Origin: Sediminitomix flava
GTDB lineage: Bacteria; Bacteroidota; Bacteroidia; Cytophagales; Flammeovirgaceae
DNA length: 64,000 bases
Assembly (NCBI RefSeq): GCF_003149185.1
Contig: NZ_QGDO01000003.1
Coordinates: 434,001 to 498,000, forward strand
Direction of reading: 5' to 3'
Below are positions 1,556 through 63,057 of the stretch, in pieces. The notes under the pieces are model-generated. The model had not been told where the DNA came from. It saw nothing but the letters and a program-made list of their open reading frames with translations, and ran no database searches. The stretch's first letter is position 1. Each line of letters starts with the position of its first letter. The translations under genes and the position numbers were made by a program.

Positions 1556-2632
1556 TTACTTCGGAACGTTGTAGTAAAGAGCTGCTGTAATGGCACTACA
1601 GATTACATTTGGCATCCATGCAGCCACAACGGGTGATAGTGAACCAGCGTCAGCAAAACTTCTACTCATGATTACCATCAGGATATAAGCAAAGGCTAAT
1701 AAGAAACCTACTGCAATTAAGAGACCGCTACCTCCTCGAGTTTTTCTCGATGAAATAACTACTCCAAGTATGGTTAGAATGATCATGGCAAAAGGATATG
1801 CATATCGTTCTTGGATCGCATTTGAATATTTCCCAAGCTTAGCAACACCTCTGGCTTTCTCTGAAGCAATGAAATCATTCAATTCAGGAATAGTAAGAGT
1901 TTCTTCGAGCTTATATCTACTTTGGAAGTATTTAGGTTTGACATTGAGGTCTAGATCTAAGTCTTTTCCTTTTGAGATTGTCATATCTTCTCCTTCAAAT
2001 GAGTATGTAGTGTATTTCTTTACATGCCACATTTGTTTTGTAGAATCCCATTCAATACGGTCTGAAGTTATTTTCTCTTTTAATTGAAGGCTATCAATTG
2101 TTTCAAGTGTGAAACGATACCCACGGTTAATATTATTGTTGTAACTCTCCATGTATAAATATGAAGAATCACTAACTCTTAAATGAATGTCTCTATCTGA
2201 GAAGTAATATTTACTCTTGATGTATTCTTTCTCAAACTCAACCTTTTTCTCTGCAGCTTTTGGAACCAGCCAACCTACATTTACGAAAGTAAGTAAAGCT
2301 AAAAGTACACTACCAATAAGGTAAGGTTGAATAAGTCGTCTGTAACTCATTCCTCCATTTAGCATTGCAACAATCTCAGTGTGCTGAGCTAGGTTTGCTG
2401 TAAAAAATACTACTGCAATAAATACTGAGATAGGGCTTAGGGTACTTAGCCAGTGAATGATTACATAGACGTAGTAATCGCTCATAACCTGCCCAAATGA
2501 CAAATTATTTTTGATGAAGTCATCAGACTTTTCAGTGTAGTCAACTGCTAGAATAATTACAGCTAACAAAAACACTACAAAAAGGAATGTTTTAAAGTAT
2601 TTTCCTAAGATGTATCTGTCAAGGATTTTCAT
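1556..2632 (-). CDS. LptF/LptG-family permease (YjgP/YjgQ)
   Basis: This 358-residue protein has three N-terminal membrane helices (starting ILDRYILGKYFKTFLFVVFLL), a periplasmic beta-rich domain from about residue 125 to 260, and three C-terminal helices. This is the fold of LptF and LptG. In the LptB2FG complex these subunits extract lipopolysaccharide from the inner membrane and pass it to the LptC/A bridge. The segment AMLNGGMSYRRLIQPYLIGS matches the coupling-helix region that contacts the LptB ATPase. A second, longer family member lies at 39470-40912; which is LptF and which is LptG is not certain, though the shorter one is more LptG-like. lptB and lptC are not in the window. Confidence 0.85.
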   Translation of the reverse strand: MKILDRYILGKYFKTFLFVVFLLAVIILAVDYTEKSDDFIKNNLSFGQVMSDYYVYVIIHWLSTLSPISVFIAVVFFTANLAQHTEIVAMLNGGMSYRRLIQPYLIGSVLLALLTFVNVGWLVPKAAEKKVEFEKEYIKSKYYFSDRDIHLRVSDSSYLYMESYNNNINRGYRFTLETIDSLQLKEKITSDRIEWDSTKQMWHVKKYTTYSFEGEDMTISKGKDLDLDLNVKPKYFQSRYKLEETLTIPELNDFIASEKARGVAKLGKYSNAIQERYAYPFAMIILTILGVVISSRKTRGGSGLLIAVGFLLAFAYILMVIMSRSFADAGSLSPVVAAWMPNVICSAITAALYYNVPK

Positions 2633-2750
2633 ACCCAGATTATAAAATGTGGAATTTGATTGAATTGCAATTCTGAAAAAACAACATTGCCGAGTACAAA
2701 AAAAAAGACTTCGCTACAATATTGCAATTTGCATCCCTCAGAAGCTGATT

Positions 2751-2758
2751 CAAATTTA
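2751..2758 (-). promoter_or_regulatory. Possible -7 promoter element for the lptG-like gene
   Basis: On the minus strand this reads TAAATTTG, matching the Bacteroidota TAnnTTTG -7 element, about 119 bases before the start codon. No clear -33 TTG is seen at the expected distance. Confidence 0.35.
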
Positions 2759-2952
2759 TTCGTTGATTTCTCTTTTTTACATATTATAAGACTTAAGACC
2801 TTACAATAGGTAGGCTGTAACTGAATTAAATCTTTGAAATTCAGCTCTAAAAGATGATGTGTCGAATTGCAGAAGTTTTAAAGTTCAATTTAATCATCTC
2901 TCTGTTAAATTTTACTAAATGTGATTTATTTTAGTTTTAGCCTTCGAATCAT

Positions 2953-2981
2953 AAAAAAAGCGATCCCAAAAATGGAATCGC
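2953..2981 (-). terminator. Intrinsic terminator of pyk
   Basis: On the minus strand an 8-bp GC-rich stem (gcgattcc with gggatcgc, one U-G pair) is followed by at least seven T residues, 28 bases after the pyk stop. Confidence 0.8.
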
Positions 2982-3008
2982 CTCAAATAATTATGTTTTT
3001 ATCTGTCT

Positions 3009-4451
3009 TTAAAATGGAGTAACACCTACTTGGCCAATTTTAAGAAGATTAGTTTTATGTCCTTCTCCATGAGGGAATGCCGCGATGTTGATATAAATAT
3101 CATTCTCAGTCAAATCACCCTTATCAGTCAAGAACTGTACGTGCTTTTCTAAAGTGTCACGTAAAGTCTCTTTAATATTTGAAGGGTAAGCTTGAACACC
3201 CCAAACAAGGTTTAGTGTATTTCTTAAGTGAGCATCATCTGTAAAGATATAGATAGGTGCCTTCGGACGATGTCTTGAAATACGGAATGCAGTCCAACCT
3301 GAAGTAGTCATACCGATAATTGCTTTCGCCTTGATTTCTTCCACCAACTTACTAGCGTGTTGTGTAAGGTGGTTCCCCATAAACGTATCCGCTTGAGGAT
3401 TGAACTCATAAGACTTGTTGTAAACCTCGTCAGACTTGTTTTCTACAGAGCGAATGATGTTTTGCATGTGTTGAATAGTCTGAACAGGATATTTACCTGC
3501 CGCAGATTCTGCTGAAAGCATTACGGCATCAGCACCATCCATAACTGCATTGGCTACATCATTTACCTCTGCTCTTGTAGGACGAGGATTAGTAATCATG
3601 CTCTCCATCATTTGAGTCGCAATAATTACAGGCTTAGCTTTCTTATTACATTTTTTTACAATGTCCTTTTGGATCATAGGTACATCAGCCATTTCAACTT
3701 CTACACCCAAATCACCACGAGCAACCATAATTGCATCTGATGCGGTAATGATATCATCGATATTTTTAACAGCTTCAGGACGCTCAATTTTAGCGATAAC
3801 TCTTGCTCTAGAGCCTCTTTCTTTGATTATACCCTTGATATACTCGATATCAGCAGCAGATCTCACGAAAGAAAGTGCAATCCAGTTAAAGTCTTGAGTT
3901 AATCCGAATTCCAAATCAGCCTTATCTTTTGCTGTTAATGAAGCTGCTGAAATATCTGTATCAGGAAGGTTCATTCCTTTTTTAGACTTCAACATTCCAC
4001 CGAAAATCACTTCAGTTTTGATTTCTTCAGCAGTAACTTCTTTAACTTTTACAGAAAGGTTACCATCATCAATCAAAATGAAGTCTCCTTTCTTTACATC
4101 TTTAGTGATGTTGGTGTAGGTTGTACTCACTTTTTGAGAATTACCTACCATTGGCTTATTCGTAATGATTAACTCTTCGCCACCTTTGATTTCCACAGCA
4201 CCGTTTTCAACTTCTCCAATACGGATTTTAGGTCCTTGCAAATCTTGAAGAATCCCGATGTTGTGACCGAAAGTAGCATTAATTTCTCTGATGTGGTTAA
4301 TCACCTCTTGATGAGAGGCGTGATCACCATGAGAGAAGTTCAATCTGAAGATGCTAACACCTGCATGTACAAGTTCTAGTAGTTTTTCCTTTGTATTTGA
4401 GGCAGGACCTACAGTTGCTACAATCTTGGTTTTGTTAAGTGAGTGACTCAT
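3009..4451 (-). CDS. pyk: Pyruvate kinase
   Basis: Pyruvate kinase converts phosphoenolpyruvate and ADP to pyruvate and ATP, the last step of glycolysis. The 480-residue protein shows the whole signature set: KIVATVGPAS at the N-terminus, FRLNFSHG (35-42), DLQGPKIR (70-77), the catalytic lysine segment AKIERPEAV (220-228), the metal-binding ARGDLGVE (244-251), TQMMESM (279-285) and PRPTRAEVNDVANAV. Length matches bacterial type enzymes without an extra C-terminal domain. At the position that determines monovalent-cation dependence (Glu in K+-dependent, Lys in independent enzymes) I read Thr113; that alignment is by eye. It is monocistronic, ending in a strong terminator. Confidence 0.97.
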   Translation of the reverse strand: MSHSLNKTKIVATVGPASNTKEKLLELVHAGVSIFRLNFSHGDHASHQEVINHIREINATFGHNIGILQDLQGPKIRIGEVENGAVEIKGGEELIITNKPMVGNSQKVSTTYTNITKDVKKGDFILIDDGNLSVKVKEVTAEEIKTEVIFGGMLKSKKGMNLPDTDISAASLTAKDKADLEFGLTQDFNWIALSFVRSAADIEYIKGIIKERGSRARVIAKIERPEAVKNIDDIITASDAIMVARGDLGVEVEMADVPMIQKDIVKKCNKKAKPVIIATQMMESMITNPRPTRAEVNDVANAVMDGADAVMLSAESAAGKYPVQTIQHMQNIIRSVENKSDEVYNKSYEFNPQADTFMGNHLTQHASKLVEEIKAKAIIGMTTSGWTAFRISRHRPKAPIYIFTDDAHLRNTLNLVWGVQAYPSNIKETLRDTLEKHVQFLTDKGDLTENDIYINIAAFPHGEGHKTNLLKIGQVGVTPF

Positions 4452-4729
4452 CTTGCGTTTTCAATTTATTTTGTTAGTCAAAAATTGTAAAGTTGAAGCT
4501 CTTAATGCTGTCTAGACTTAATTATAGTTGTCTGCACAGGACCATTTTTAGAACAACGATCCCAAAGATTCAGTTTGAATGCATTGAATTATCCTATTTC
4601 TTTTGTATTTATATTAAGTCCTAAATCGAGAGTTTTGTATAAAATTTATACTTTAGCTGAGCAAAATAGGGCGATATTCAGATAATCAGCACTTTAATGT
4701 AATACTGAACCAATTTTCTATCAAAGTAA

Positions 4730-5503
4730 ATGAATGTACTCAACAAAATGTATGACGCTTGTCAACTAAAAAGGAAACAAGTAGCAGTTTTAATAGATCC
4801 CGATAAAATAGAAGTTAATAAAGTTTCGGGACTGATTAAGAAGGCTGAGGAAATTGGGGTTTCTTATATTTTTATAGGAGGAAGTCTTTTGTTGAAGAAC
4901 CAAGTAGACGCAATTTGTATAGAAATAAAAAAGGGCAGTGATATCCCTGTTGTTTTATTCCCTGGCAATTTATCGCAGCTGTCCCCGTATACCGATGCAA
5001 CTTTATTCCTTTCATTGGTATCTGGAAGAAATGCTGAGTTTTTAATTGGCCAACATGTGGTATCTGCTCCATTGTTAAAGCAAATGAAACAAGAAGTGAT
5101 ACCAACAGCCTATGTTTTGATAGATGGTGGTAGGCAAACGAGTGTTTCTTATATGAGCAATACAACGCCTATACCTGCTGATAAAACGGATATAGCAGCA
5201 AGTACAGCTTTAGCAGGAGAGATGTTAGGAATGAAAATGGTTTATTTGGAGGCTGGGAGTGGAGCACAAAATCCAGTGACAGAAAAAATGATCTCAAGAG
5301 TTAAACAACAACTTAGCGTTCCATTGATCGTCGGTGGTGGGATAAGGTCTGCTAAGAAAGCAACAGCGGCTTTTGAAGCTGGAGCAGATATTATCGTAGT
5401 CGGAACAGCTATTGAGAATGATGTTCAATTTTTGGAAGAACTAAAAGGTGTAATAGCATCTCAGAATACTTTAAAACTACCAAATTCATCAAGTCTAAAT
5501 TGA
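4730..5503 (+). CDS. Geranylgeranylglyceryl-phosphate synthase family prenyltransferase
   Basis: This 257-residue TIM-barrel protein belongs to the GGGPS/PcrB family, which links a polyprenyl diphosphate to sn-glycerol-1-phosphate through an ether bond. Key family segments are AVLIDPDK (19-26), the glycerol-phosphate site YLEAGSGA (172-179), VGGGIRS (201-207) and VVGTAIE (223-229). In archaea the enzyme starts membrane lipid synthesis. Bacteroidota carry a bacterial branch whose product in the cell is poorly defined. The start ATG lacks a Shine-Dalgarno sequence. It is followed after 44 bases by a WYL regulator on the same strand, so the two may be cotranscribed. Confidence 0.88.
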   Translation: MNVLNKMYDACQLKRKQVAVLIDPDKIEVNKVSGLIKKAEEIGVSYIFIGGSLLLKNQVDAICIEIKKGSDIPVVLFPGNLSQLSPYTDATLFLSLVSGRNAEFLIGQHVVSAPLLKQMKQEVIPTAYVLIDGGRQTSVSYMSNTTPIPADKTDIAASTALAGEMLGMKMVYLEAGSGAQNPVTEKMISRVKQQLSVPLIVGGGIRSAKKATAAFEAGADIIVVGTAIENDVQFLEELKGVIASQNTLKLPNSSSLN

Positions 5504-60203: not shown

Positions 60204-60233
60204 AAAAGGCGAGCTTTTCGAAGCTCGCCTTTT
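60204..60233 (+). terminator. Terminator of gapA with a UUCG tetraloop
   Basis: A 13-bp perfect stem (60204-60216 with 60221-60233) is closed by a ttcg loop and ends in a T-rich stretch. Confidence 0.9.
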
Positions 60234-60283: not shown

Positions 60284-60862
60284 ATGAATTCTGAAATAGC
60301 TTTAAAGTTTAGACTACATTTAGAGGAATTAATTTCTTTGACTGATGATGAGTTTGAAGATATTTATTCCTATTTCAACTTAAAGAAGTTAAGAAAGCAT
60401 CAATTCTTAGTTCAAGAAGGCGATTCTGTAAATCACGAATACTGGGTAGTTGAAGGATTGCTTAAAACATATGCTATCGAGGAAAATGGCAAAGAACATA
60501 TTCTTCAGTTTGGAGCAGAGAATTGGTGGGTTTCTGATTATGAAGCTTTTTTTCAGTCAGAAAAAGCGACTATCAATATTGATTGTATCGAAAATTCAAT
60601 TCTTCTAGGTCTAAGCCTAAATGATCGGAAATCCCTTTGTGAGAAGTATCCTAAAATGACCATTTTTTTACTTCGTAAATCGAATCTTGGATATGTTGCT
60701 TTGCAGAAGCGATTACTTTCAATGATGAAAGATTCGGTAGATAAAAGGTATGAAGATCTGATTTCATATAACCCAGATTTATTTCAACGCTTACCAAAAA
60801 CCTTGATAGCAGCTTATTTAGGGGTGTCTCGAGAAACACTAAGTCGATTAGGTAAACGATAG
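60284..60862 (+). CDS. Crp/Fnr-family transcriptional regulator
   Basis: From the ATG at 60284 the protein has 192 residues (a TTG 13 codons earlier would add only a poorly conserved extension). An N-terminal cyclic-nucleotide-binding-like beta roll at about 15-115 (FLVQEGDSVNHEYWVVEGLLKTYAI) is joined by a helix to a DNA-binding domain. Its helix reads LGVSRETLSRLGKR (180-192). SRETLSR keeps the three side chains (Arg, Glu, Arg) that E. coli CRP uses to read TGTGA half sites. No CxxC or Fe-S cysteines are seen, so it is not an oxygen-sensing Fnr. A perfect TGTGA-N6-TCACA site starts right after its stop codon. The ligand is unknown. Confidence 0.88.
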   Translation: MNSEIALKFRLHLEELISLTDDEFEDIYSYFNLKKLRKHQFLVQEGDSVNHEYWVVEGLLKTYAIEENGKEHILQFGAENWWVSDYEAFFQSEKATINIDCIENSILLGLSLNDRKSLCEKYPKMTIFLLRKSNLGYVALQKRLLSMMKDSVDKRYEDLISYNPDLFQRLPKTLIAAYLGVSRETLSRLGKR

Positions 60863-60878
60863 TGTGATCTAAGTCACA
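60863..60878. promoter_or_regulatory. Perfect CRP-type operator TGTGA-N6-TCACA
   Basis: tgtga (60863-60867) and tcaca (60874-60878) are separated by tctaag, with the exact spacing of the E. coli CRP consensus. The centre is about 55 bases upstream of a near-consensus -7 box gatatttg (60923-60930), close to the class I activator distance. It sits 83 bases before the secreted DJ-1-family gene. Confidence 0.65.
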
Positions 60879-60960
60879 TCAAAATTGTGCGTTTCTTCCT
60901 GTTTTAGCCTCTAAAAGAAGGTGATATTTGTATCGTTAATTAAACAAATCAAATATAAAG

Positions 60961-61719
60961 ATGAAACGCATATTATTATTCTTAAGTATTAGCCTCTCTT
61001 TCTTAGCAATAAACTCAACTTTTGCTCAATCAGAAAAAGCTCAAAAAATCCTATTTGTACTTTCTAGTCACTCAGAATTAGGAGATACAGGGAAGGAAAC
61101 TGGATATTATTTAAGTGAAGCAGCTCACCCATATGAAGTTCTTCATAAAGCAGGTTACCAAATTGATTTTGTAAGTCCAAAAGGTGGTAAAGCTCCTGTA
61201 GATGGATTTGACCTTGATGATAAAGTTAACAAAGCGTTTTGGGAGAATGAAGAAATCCAAAAGCAATTGAATAATACATTGAAGCCGTCTCAAGTAAAAG
61301 CTAAAGATTACGTAGCGATTCATTACGTAGGAGGTCATGGTACGATGTGGGATTTTCCTAACAATAAAAAATTAGCAAAAATTGCTCGCGATATTTATGA
61401 AAATGAAGGTGTTGTTAGTGCTGTTTGCCATGGCCCTTCAGGTTTACTAAATATCAAATTGAGTAATGGAGAATACTTGATTGAAGGAAAAAATGTTAGT
61501 GTCTTCACTAATGAAGAAGAAGAAGCTGTAAAACTAACAGAAGTAGTACCTTTTTCATTGGAAGATGAATTTATAGCTAAAGGAGCTAAAGTAGATAAAG
61601 CTGAAAACTGGGCTTCAAAAGTTTCTGTGGATGGTAGATTAGTGACGGGGCAGAATCCTGCTTCAGCAAAAGAGGTTGGAGAAGCGATCATAACTTTGCT
61701 TTCTGAAAAAGTAAACTAA
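60961..61719 (+). CDS. Secreted DJ-1/PfpI-family protein (Hsp31-like)
   Basis: This 252-residue protein has a signal peptide (to about residue 22, ending TFAQ) and a DJ-1/PfpI domain. The nucleophile elbow reads SAVCHGPSG with Cys156 and His157, the partner Glu46 is in KETGYYLSEAAHPYE, and GGHGTMWDF precedes it. The ETGxxxxEAxxPY pattern is that of the Hsp31/glyoxalase III-like branch. Such enzymes detoxify methylglyoxal or act as chaperones, but export is unusual. The neighbouring Crp/Fnr regulator and its candidate site suggest regulated expression. Confidence 0.9.
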   Translation: MKRILLFLSISLSFLAINSTFAQSEKAQKILFVLSSHSELGDTGKETGYYLSEAAHPYEVLHKAGYQIDFVSPKGGKAPVDGFDLDDKVNKAFWENEEIQKQLNNTLKPSQVKAKDYVAIHYVGGHGTMWDFPNNKKLAKIARDIYENEGVVSAVCHGPSGLLNIKLSNGEYLIEGKNVSVFTNEEEEAVKLTEVVPFSLEDEFIAKGAKVDKAENWASKVSVDGRLVTGQNPASAKEVGEAIITLLSEKVN

Positions 61720-63057
61720 ATAGAGGTATAATAACTAAACTAATAAACACTTAAGTCTAAAGATTTAAGATTTAAGATTAGTATTTACCATAGTTAAGTT
61801 TTAGGTAATAGATTAAGCCAATTGGATCATTTAAATTATCCAATTGGCTTTTATTTTTTGTAATTTTTCGCCTTAATTATCCTTTTTTTATGATCAATTA
61901 GATTCTGATTTGCTTAGTTATTTAGATTTATTGACAGAAGCCTGTTTTACTTGAATTCTAGTGTTACGTAATTGTTACGTGTTTACCTTTTTTAAATAAT
62001 AACTCATATTAATCGATTGATTATGAGTCGAAAAAAGGACTTTGTTTTCTCTTTAGATATTTCCTTCCCTGATTCATATAATTTTTACACGTAAAATGCT
62101 GTTTTCAATTGTTTACCATTTATGCGGTAAGTTATAGATAATGAGGTTTCTACATATTTATTTTCAAGTGCTGTTTACGTTGTTATTGTGCTATCCGTTA
62201 ACCTTATATTAATATGAAAGTTGTGATATATCGATTTTTTTCCTCGAATATTGCACTGTCTTTTAGAGCAAGGCTTGAAAGAAAAGCATTGTTGTGTAAC
62301 AAAAAGATTTGCTTGTAAAAAGTCTGTACCGAATGGGCAGCAATAATAATTCATTGAAATTTTTGATTGATCTATCTAACGAAATGAAATAAAGTCTAGT
62401 ATTTTGATGCAGTAGGTTTGGCAACTGCAGTTCTAGCAATGTAAGTATATAGCGATGCCAGCAAGATTATTGCCTAGATTATACTTGCAAGTTTATTCTA
62501 CTATCCATTAGCAGAATTGTTATTTGGTTAGTTAGAATCAATCATGATCAACTCTATAATTGTCAATTTAATAGTAATCTGAGCTTTAATGAATAGGTCT
62601 ATTTATTCTAATTAATATAAGCCTATTGATACATACGATAGCATCGTATTATATAAAAGAAGTGAAATAGATAAACCTGAATAAACGGTGTTTCACCTAG
62701 CACATTTATTCAATTATATGACTGACAATCCCTTCCTAAAAAAGTCTTATAAATCAGTATAAATTTTAGTCTCACAGATTAGCTAAACATTGTTGTTTAC
62801 ACCTGTTTATCAGAGAGTAAAGTTTCTTCAAATTTTAGTTAATGTGGGAGATCAACCTAAAAGGAAAAAAGTTTAGGATAAGCATTTCAAAGCATATTAA
62901 ATGAAATGTGAGATTTGATAAGAAAAAGTAGTCAAATCATAATAAGCTGATCGAGCTTTATAATAGAATTTACAGATACAAATTTCTACAATCGATAACC
63001 TGATATGGAATAAACAACTGCTTCCTATTCAGGTATGAATTATCAAGATTAAAGAAA
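61720..63057. other. 1.34-kb region without a convincing gene
   Basis: No frame with family similarity, tRNA or known riboswitch was recognised. The region holds the DJ-1 terminator (61815-61859), two gttacgt direct repeats 11 bases apart (61963 and 61974), four GTTTAC-containing sites (61981, 62111, 62173, 62795), a 10-bp palindrome aactgcagtt (62423-62432) and several perfect short hairpins between 62580 and 62910. A -7-like TAGGTTTG lies at 62413. The longest candidate small frame is 34 codons (62214-62318). Confidence 0.4.
61815..61859 (+). terminator. Intrinsic terminator of the DJ-1-family gene
   Basis: A perfect 13-bp stem (61815-61827 with 61838-61850) is followed by a T-rich tail. 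Confidence 0.85.

Follow-up and report, generated by a model that had tools for sequence, protein, structure and literature searches.

The locus lies within the window, by which we mean the whole 64 kb stretch of Sediminitomix flava DNA that was analysed. On the forward strand it reads as a GAPDH-like gene (named by eye), a Crp/Fnr-type regulator gene encoding 192 aa (60284-60862), the palindrome TGTGATCTAAGTCACA and a DJ-1/PfpI family gene encoding 252 aa (60961-61719), the putative target. The palindrome occupies 60863-60878, has perfect halves and begins directly 3' of the regulator's TAG stop (60860-60862). An earlier sequence-only reading had placed an exact TGTGA-N6-TCACA palindrome at this point, next to a protein whose recognition helix keeps the base-reading residues of CRP. 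Both were recovered, the helix VSRETLSRLGKR being encoded at 60824-60859 (+ strand), and the distance of 83 bases given for the DJ-1 gene was corrected to 82 bases between the site and the ATG at 60961. A hairpin scan detected a terminator-like hairpin 3' of the GAPDH gene (60204-60233, + strand), one such match against a shuffle mean of 0.5 and weak evidence when taken alone; it suggests that the regulator is transcribed apart from the GAPDH gene.

The DJ-1/PfpI protein was assigned by its Pfam domain match (DJ-1_PfpI, 1.8e-15, 57.6 bits against a cut-off of 26.6), and it also matched NCBIfam HchA at 3e-20, under the HchA cut-off. By eye, the protein carries a nucleophile-like AVCHGP stretch; its N terminus resembles a signal sequence, and the protein looks exported. 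In the approximately 1.25 kb 3' of this gene (61720-62969), no ORF of at least 80 aa was listed and there was no Rfam match.

The regulator and its relatives

Relatives of the regulator were collected from genome searches (58 rows) and from named genome records (80 rows), the latter chosen partly via the peptide LGVSRETLS. Removal of 10 duplicate or mis-started entries (L155 and L167 are fragments) reduced these 138 rows to 128 distinct regulators; one regulator match, G066:C90, was left out of the set. The helix motif S/T-RETLSR was present in 124 of the 128, hereafter the RETLSR regulators.

The window regulator scored above the cut-off for the Pfam cNMP_binding domain (PF00027, 7.9e-11). 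All helix-turn-helix Pfam models scored below their cut-offs, HTH_Crp_2 among them (profile positions 21-42 of 70), likely because the C-terminal wing is missing: all 124 RETLSR regulators end 1-15 residues after RETLSR, and therefore lack the wing of a winged helix. An AlphaFold2 model (pLDDT 94, recognition helix at residues 183-191) contained the beta-roll sensor, dimer helix and Crp-type helix-turn-helix of the Crp/Fnr superfamily and aligned to CRP and FNR chains with Z scores of 16.4-19.9. The NCBIfam equivalog models of the two named proteins were not matched at their cut-offs, with 24.5 bits against 266 for CRP (PRK11753.1) and 34.1 bits against 228 for Fnr (PRK11161.1).

E. coli CRP recognises the consensus TGTGA-N6-TCACA, and its promoters are grouped into classes I, II and III. 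With E. coli crp from NC_000913 as the reference, the regulator had in common with CRP its fold (1g6n, Z 16.9 over 172 residues), the equivalents of the base-reading residues R180, E181 and R185 (124/124, which for R, E and R holds by the RETLSR selection), and the operator, including its inner YNTANN tendency and the occurrence of tandem sites upstream of the promoter. The two differ in the wing and in the Bacteroidota type of the -7 box, and nothing in the S. flava genome points to a global regulon. They differ also at Arg82, the residue that holds the cAMP phosphate in CRP, which was present in 0/124 RETLSR regulators and replaced in all of them by A, S, G or T. The position of CRP Glu72 was Asp in 124/124, and the mapping of Thr127/Ser128 is unsure owing to a gap in the alignment. 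Trp82 and Asp85 were invariant (128/128), and the aromatic residues suggest that the former cAMP pocket has changed. Cys101 (codon at 60584-60586, + strand), in the sensor domain, was found in 122/128 regulators overall and in 121/124 RETLSR members (absent in 3), a degree of conservation that makes it a candidate redox or electrophile sensor. A search for a class III cyclase, which covered the PF00211 class alone, gave no PF00211 match in the S. flava genome.

Among the best full-length structural matches was FNR of Aliivibrio fischeri (5E44 and variants), with Z scores of 19.7-19.9 for chains 8qto, 9qmc, 9qly, 9qll and 5e44. FNR senses through an Fe-S cluster at its N terminus and recognises half-sites of the TTGAT type, whereas the regulator sequence contains no N-terminal Cys cluster of the Fe-S motif kind, its first Cys being Cys101, and its operator is of the TGTGA type. 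The closest solved relative by sequence was 3DN7, a cyclic nucleotide binding regulatory protein of Cytophaga hutchinsonii (6.8e-31), which also aligned best with the sensor domain in structure, with a Z score of 21.5 over 148 residues, and has the WW-SDY motif in common with the regulator. However, 3DN7 carries GFTPEYLSEIRK in place of GVSRETLSR in its recognition helix and Ser at the Cys101 position, and therefore falls outside the RETLSR group. A functional likeness is offered by DdrI, a CRP-family protein from another phylum (Deinococcus radiodurans), which is reported to take up a DNA-binding conformation in the absence of cAMP (PMC11253593). PMC8510549 takes its CRP and FNR matrices from E. 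coli, and its accessible part makes no mention of Bacteroidota or YceI. Among the papers listed by the literature searches, judged by title and opening of the abstract, we found no study of this regulator, its operator or the cassette, although 'Crp/Fnr' is an unsearchable term and one may have been missed.

Operator conservation and promoter geometry

We scored the site in a span from 12 bp before the regulator stop to 300 bp after it. Among the 124 RETLSR regulators, 55 carried an exact site, 46 a site with one mismatch, 17 with two, and 6 with three or more. A site with at most one mismatch was thus present at 101/124 loci, compared to 0.7% of composition-shuffled 300-bp downstream stretches. 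The two sources of relatives were also scored separately over 420 bp downstream: the named set alone (n=71) yielded 26 exact, 28 one-mismatch and 14 two-mismatch sites with 3 loci having none, and the other set (n=53) yielded 29, 18, 3 and 3, respectively. Within the inner six bases, position 6 was T or C in 107/118 site-bearing loci, and the T and A of TA at positions 8-9 occurred in 108 and 102 of the 118. One of the four non-RETLSR regulators (L131) had a one-mismatch site, 195 bp downstream.

The same search was applied to 34 loci of paralogues that carry different helices, drawn from S. flava and related genomes, a set that keeps L007 (no protein obtained) and L013 (no helix-turn-helix end). 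RETLSR was absent from every frame of these loci, and a site with at most one mismatch lay downstream in 0/34 and upstream in one; in this comparison helix and clade are confounded, the control paralogues being more distant than the RETLSR group. The six RETLSR regulators without a site divided evenly. In three the absence has an explanation, namely displacement of the operator by an insertion (L105, with the operator at L244), a site upstream instead (L112) and a contig end (L118); the other three (L141, L146 and L211) have no evident excuse. Judged by conservation, the TGTGATCTAAGTCACA of the window is not a chance match.

A second element with the consensus TGTGAYNTANNTCCT was detected downstream of the site in 101/118 site-bearing loci, at an offset of exactly 23 bp in 96/118; the same finder applied to shuffled spacers returned an element in 12% and an element at 23 bp in 0.4%. 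The finder required TC at positions 12-13 plus 6/8 matches within 18-44 bp, so that conservation of TC at these positions is by construction, while that of the 23-bp offset, the following CT and the spacing to the -7 box is not; it also labels some loci 'single' where the proximal site is just weak. The right half of the proximal site was mostly TCCT and not TCAC (C14 in 85/96, T15 in 88/96), and selection there may act on something other than a second half-site. In the window, the proximal operator TGTGCGTTTCTTCCTG lies at 60886-60901 (+ strand), with a GTG left half and a TCCT right half, and is a poor site (TGTGC...TTCCTG).

According to the accessible part of PMC7366714, the primary sigma factor of Bacteroidota reads TAnnTTTG at -7 and TTTG near -33. 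The TTTG of the -7 box lay 30 or 31 bp past the proximal or single site in 106/118 loci, compared to 1% of shuffles; with TTTA or TTCG also allowed, this spacing was found in 96/101 tandem and 12/17 single loci. The 12 single-site promoters of the latter count thus have their site at the proximal spacing, and 7 of them precede RidA genes. The window box is GATATTTG (60923-60930, + strand), the 'gatatttg' to which the sequence-only reading had pointed; it is one mismatch off TAnnTTTG, its position is conserved, and its G lies 30 bp past the end of TCCT. By eye, no TTTG stands at the expected -33 place in the window. A sigma-70-type promoter was rejected, its scan being at shuffle level (3 vs 3.3).

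The -7 box predicts a transcription start at about 60934 (±2, + strand), which therefore places the proximal centre at about -40.5 and the distal centre, that of TGTGATCTAAGTCACA, at about -63.5. A class II or tandem CRP-type promoter has a site near -41.5 at a fixed distance from the core and may have a further one upstream, and the sequence geometry observed here agrees with that description. With the start so predicted, the layout would be that of a CRP class II promoter with an additional upstream site. The class I geometry suggested by the sequence-only reading holds in that the perfect site is distal and class I-like; it was incomplete in that the second site, at the class II position, had been missed.

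Downstream genes and the operator-first search

Target families were assigned by clustering followed by Pfam on representatives. Downstream of the 124 RETLSR regulators lay genes of the DJ-1/PfpI (44), tautomerase (28), RidA (13), YceI (8), DoxX (5), OYE (3), SDR (3), flavodoxin-like quinone-reductase (3) and MRJP/SGL (2) types, and 15 others that included aldo/keto reductase, SGL protein, PhzF and cupin genes. In the loci that were read, tautomerase genes were followed by an SDR gene. A quick tree was built for the 128 regulators, in which 58 of 125 inner branches are open and several end branches are long; at least 16 changes of the classified target label are required on it. Targets therefore seem to have been exchanged without a change in promoter geometry.

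To avoid picking loci by their regulator, we searched for the tandem pattern GTGA-N6-TCAC-N9-GTG-N7-TCCT on its own. The search of 194 genomes of the order returned 35 matches, against 0 for the reversed control. Most of them (26/35) lay at most 400 bp downstream of a clade regulator and on its strand, and two were upstream of and opposite to one (G055:C23 and G040:C2). A further match was the operator of G036, 2.7 kb from its own regulator and still before a DJ-1 gene (L244). Two preceded SDR genes, the fetched stretch showing no Crp/Fnr gene at either (L242 and L243), two adjoined a DJ-1 gene (at one of these, L247, with a Crp/Fnr gene of another type on the far side), and two were inside ORFs (L245 and L246). 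By genome, a tandem match was found in 26/38 that have the regulator and in 1/156 that lack it (Fisher p 5e-22); one of the 26, G147, had only an ORF-internal match, and the sole match among the 156 is likewise inside an ORF. The remaining 12 of the 38 regulator-bearing genomes had no match to the strict pattern. Across 395 genomes of the phylum, the pattern gave 10 matches (control, 1), 9 of them beside a RETLSR regulator; the 10 comprise the window, G128 and eight new loci, of which seven have a RETLSR helix end just upstream and one does not.

Several of these loci have features of their own. At L244 (G036:C39:5400-13500), ParDE-type toxin-antitoxin-like genes (by eye; approximately 2590-5000, some in repeated copies) part the regulator from the operator and DJ-1 gene, and the 3' end of the regulator is repeated just before the operator. 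At L242 (2393-2452) and L243 (2447-2507), three operator copies 23 bp apart precede the SDR gene; these genomes carry several clade regulators, and the arrays may be targets in trans. At L247 (G055:C8) and L240 (G040:C5), a tandem GTGATTCAAATCAC operator precedes the DJ-1 gene with the same 23-bp and 30-bp spacings, and at L247 the Crp/Fnr gene on the other side has the helix STVHLSR. The tandem layout may, from these two loci, be older than the RETLSR group.

Proposed mechanism and alternative explanations

On sequence comparison, we consider it probable that the adjacent Crp/Fnr protein reads a tandem operator of which TGTGATCTAAGTCACA is the distal half, and that it would activate the next gene as a dedicated regulator independent of cAMP. 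The comparison argues for this through the co-occurrence of regulator and operator, the second site at 23 bp, the fixed distance to the -7 box, the proximal spacing of most single sites and the apparent swapping of the downstream gene among families that are for the most part of reductase or detoxification type. It likewise gives strong support to the local regulator-target pair put forward in the sequence-only reading, the search with the operator alone having led back to the regulator. In the proposed mechanism, a regulator dimer bound to the perfect distal site (about -63.5) would help another dimer to occupy the imperfect proximal site (about -40.5); this second dimer would touch RNA polymerase as a class II activator and substitute for the missing -33 element.

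Most of the target families have quinones, enals, dicarbonyls or oxidants as substrates or give protection from them, and for this reason we propose an electrophile or redox signal. Judging from the DJ-1/PfpI, OYE, tautomerase/SDR, RidA, quinone-reductase-like and DoxX neighbours, it may be stress from reactive electrophiles, quinones or oxidants; Cys101, or a hydrophobic ligand bound where cAMP once was, could serve to sense it. The idea is less apt for the YceI and MRJP/SGL neighbours, and the nature of the signal is the least certain step, which we advance tentatively.

The regulator could instead be a repressor, or a dual regulator, that keeps its target off until the signal arrives. Detoxification genes are often controlled by repressors, and Crp/Fnr proteins can repress. 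At this promoter, however, both sites lie upstream and neither overlaps the -7 box or the predicted start; their class II and class I-like positions, the spacing fixed to the -7 box and the lack, by eye, of a TTTG where the -33 element of the window promoter should stand are features of activation. We regard repression as unlikely.

We also consider it very unlikely that the site is part of a global cAMP-CRP-like regulon under the control of some other Crp/Fnr protein of S. flava. Its sequence is identical to the CRP consensus of E. coli, and the genome holds 15 matches to the regulator at E <= 0.001, but RETLSR occurs in no frame of the 14 other Crp/Fnr loci (3.3-3.6 kb each), no PF00211 cyclase was matched, and across genomes the operator tracks the RETLSR clade. 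The motif counts also show no excess. The exact motif TGTGATCTAAGTCACA has its sole match in the window at this locus, where composition predicts about 1e-4 per 100-bp gap, and occurs 6 times in the 6.6 Mb genome, compared to about 7 expected from the base composition of the window and 2 for a reversed control pattern; four of the remaining five sites are inside ORFs and one is intergenic. The degenerate consensus with one mismatch allowed gave 65 genome matches against 81 for the reversed control. A genome-wide regulon in S. flava was rejected on these counts. The sequence-only reading had held that a motif frequent and randomly placed genome-wide would speak against the pair. The count is indeed chance-like, and the pair stands because one site suffices for a dedicated local regulator; the evidence for the site is its conservation, since the motif count alone is what chance would give.

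The only other intergenic exact site of the genome (L045 position 2001, G000:C1:1855934) lies upstream of a run of genes that by eye are HlyD-like or of efflux type. Counted by eye, about 35 bp separate it from the nearest TTTG, which is off the 30-31 bp rule. Near-consensus sites with zero mismatches were also seen at G000:C1:1831036 and C2:360878.

That the palindrome is a chance match, or an RNA hairpin or terminator at the 3' end of the regulator gene, is hardly credible: the chance-level frequency of the motif and a 7-bp hairpin that can form are in its favour, but the hairpin z-score is -0.97, the terminator-like hairpin scan has no match at the site, the site is conserved at 101/124 loci with fixed spacing to the downstream promoter, and the operator stays with DJ-1 when split from the regulator (L244) and stands before SDR genes at loci with no Crp/Fnr gene in the fetched stretch (L242 and L243). 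An RNA element was rejected as a candidate, with no Rfam match in the window at the gathering threshold.

Returning to the dedicated activator, it is possible, and we offer this as a tentative generalisation, that the RETLSR regulators form a Bacteroidota family of cAMP-independent stress sensors that kept the CRP operator and lost cAMP binding and the wing. Regulator, tandem operator and class II promoter would then make up a portable cassette into which electrophile or redox genes are swapped, with a reaction at Cys101 or a pocket ligand as the switch. The recurrence of the same regulator, operator and fixed spacing before varied detoxification-type genes in many Bacteroidota suggests such a portable control unit, of which we found no prior description. 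For this group of Bacteroidota Crp/Fnr genes, on which we found no study, in a phylum whose promoters are unusual, the analysis predicts a regulator, its operator, the geometry of the promoter and a set of targets. The cassette would also be a natural experiment in which the target, and perhaps the signal, changes while the DNA code of the regulator stays fixed, and its compact promoter is a possible tool in Bacteroidota.
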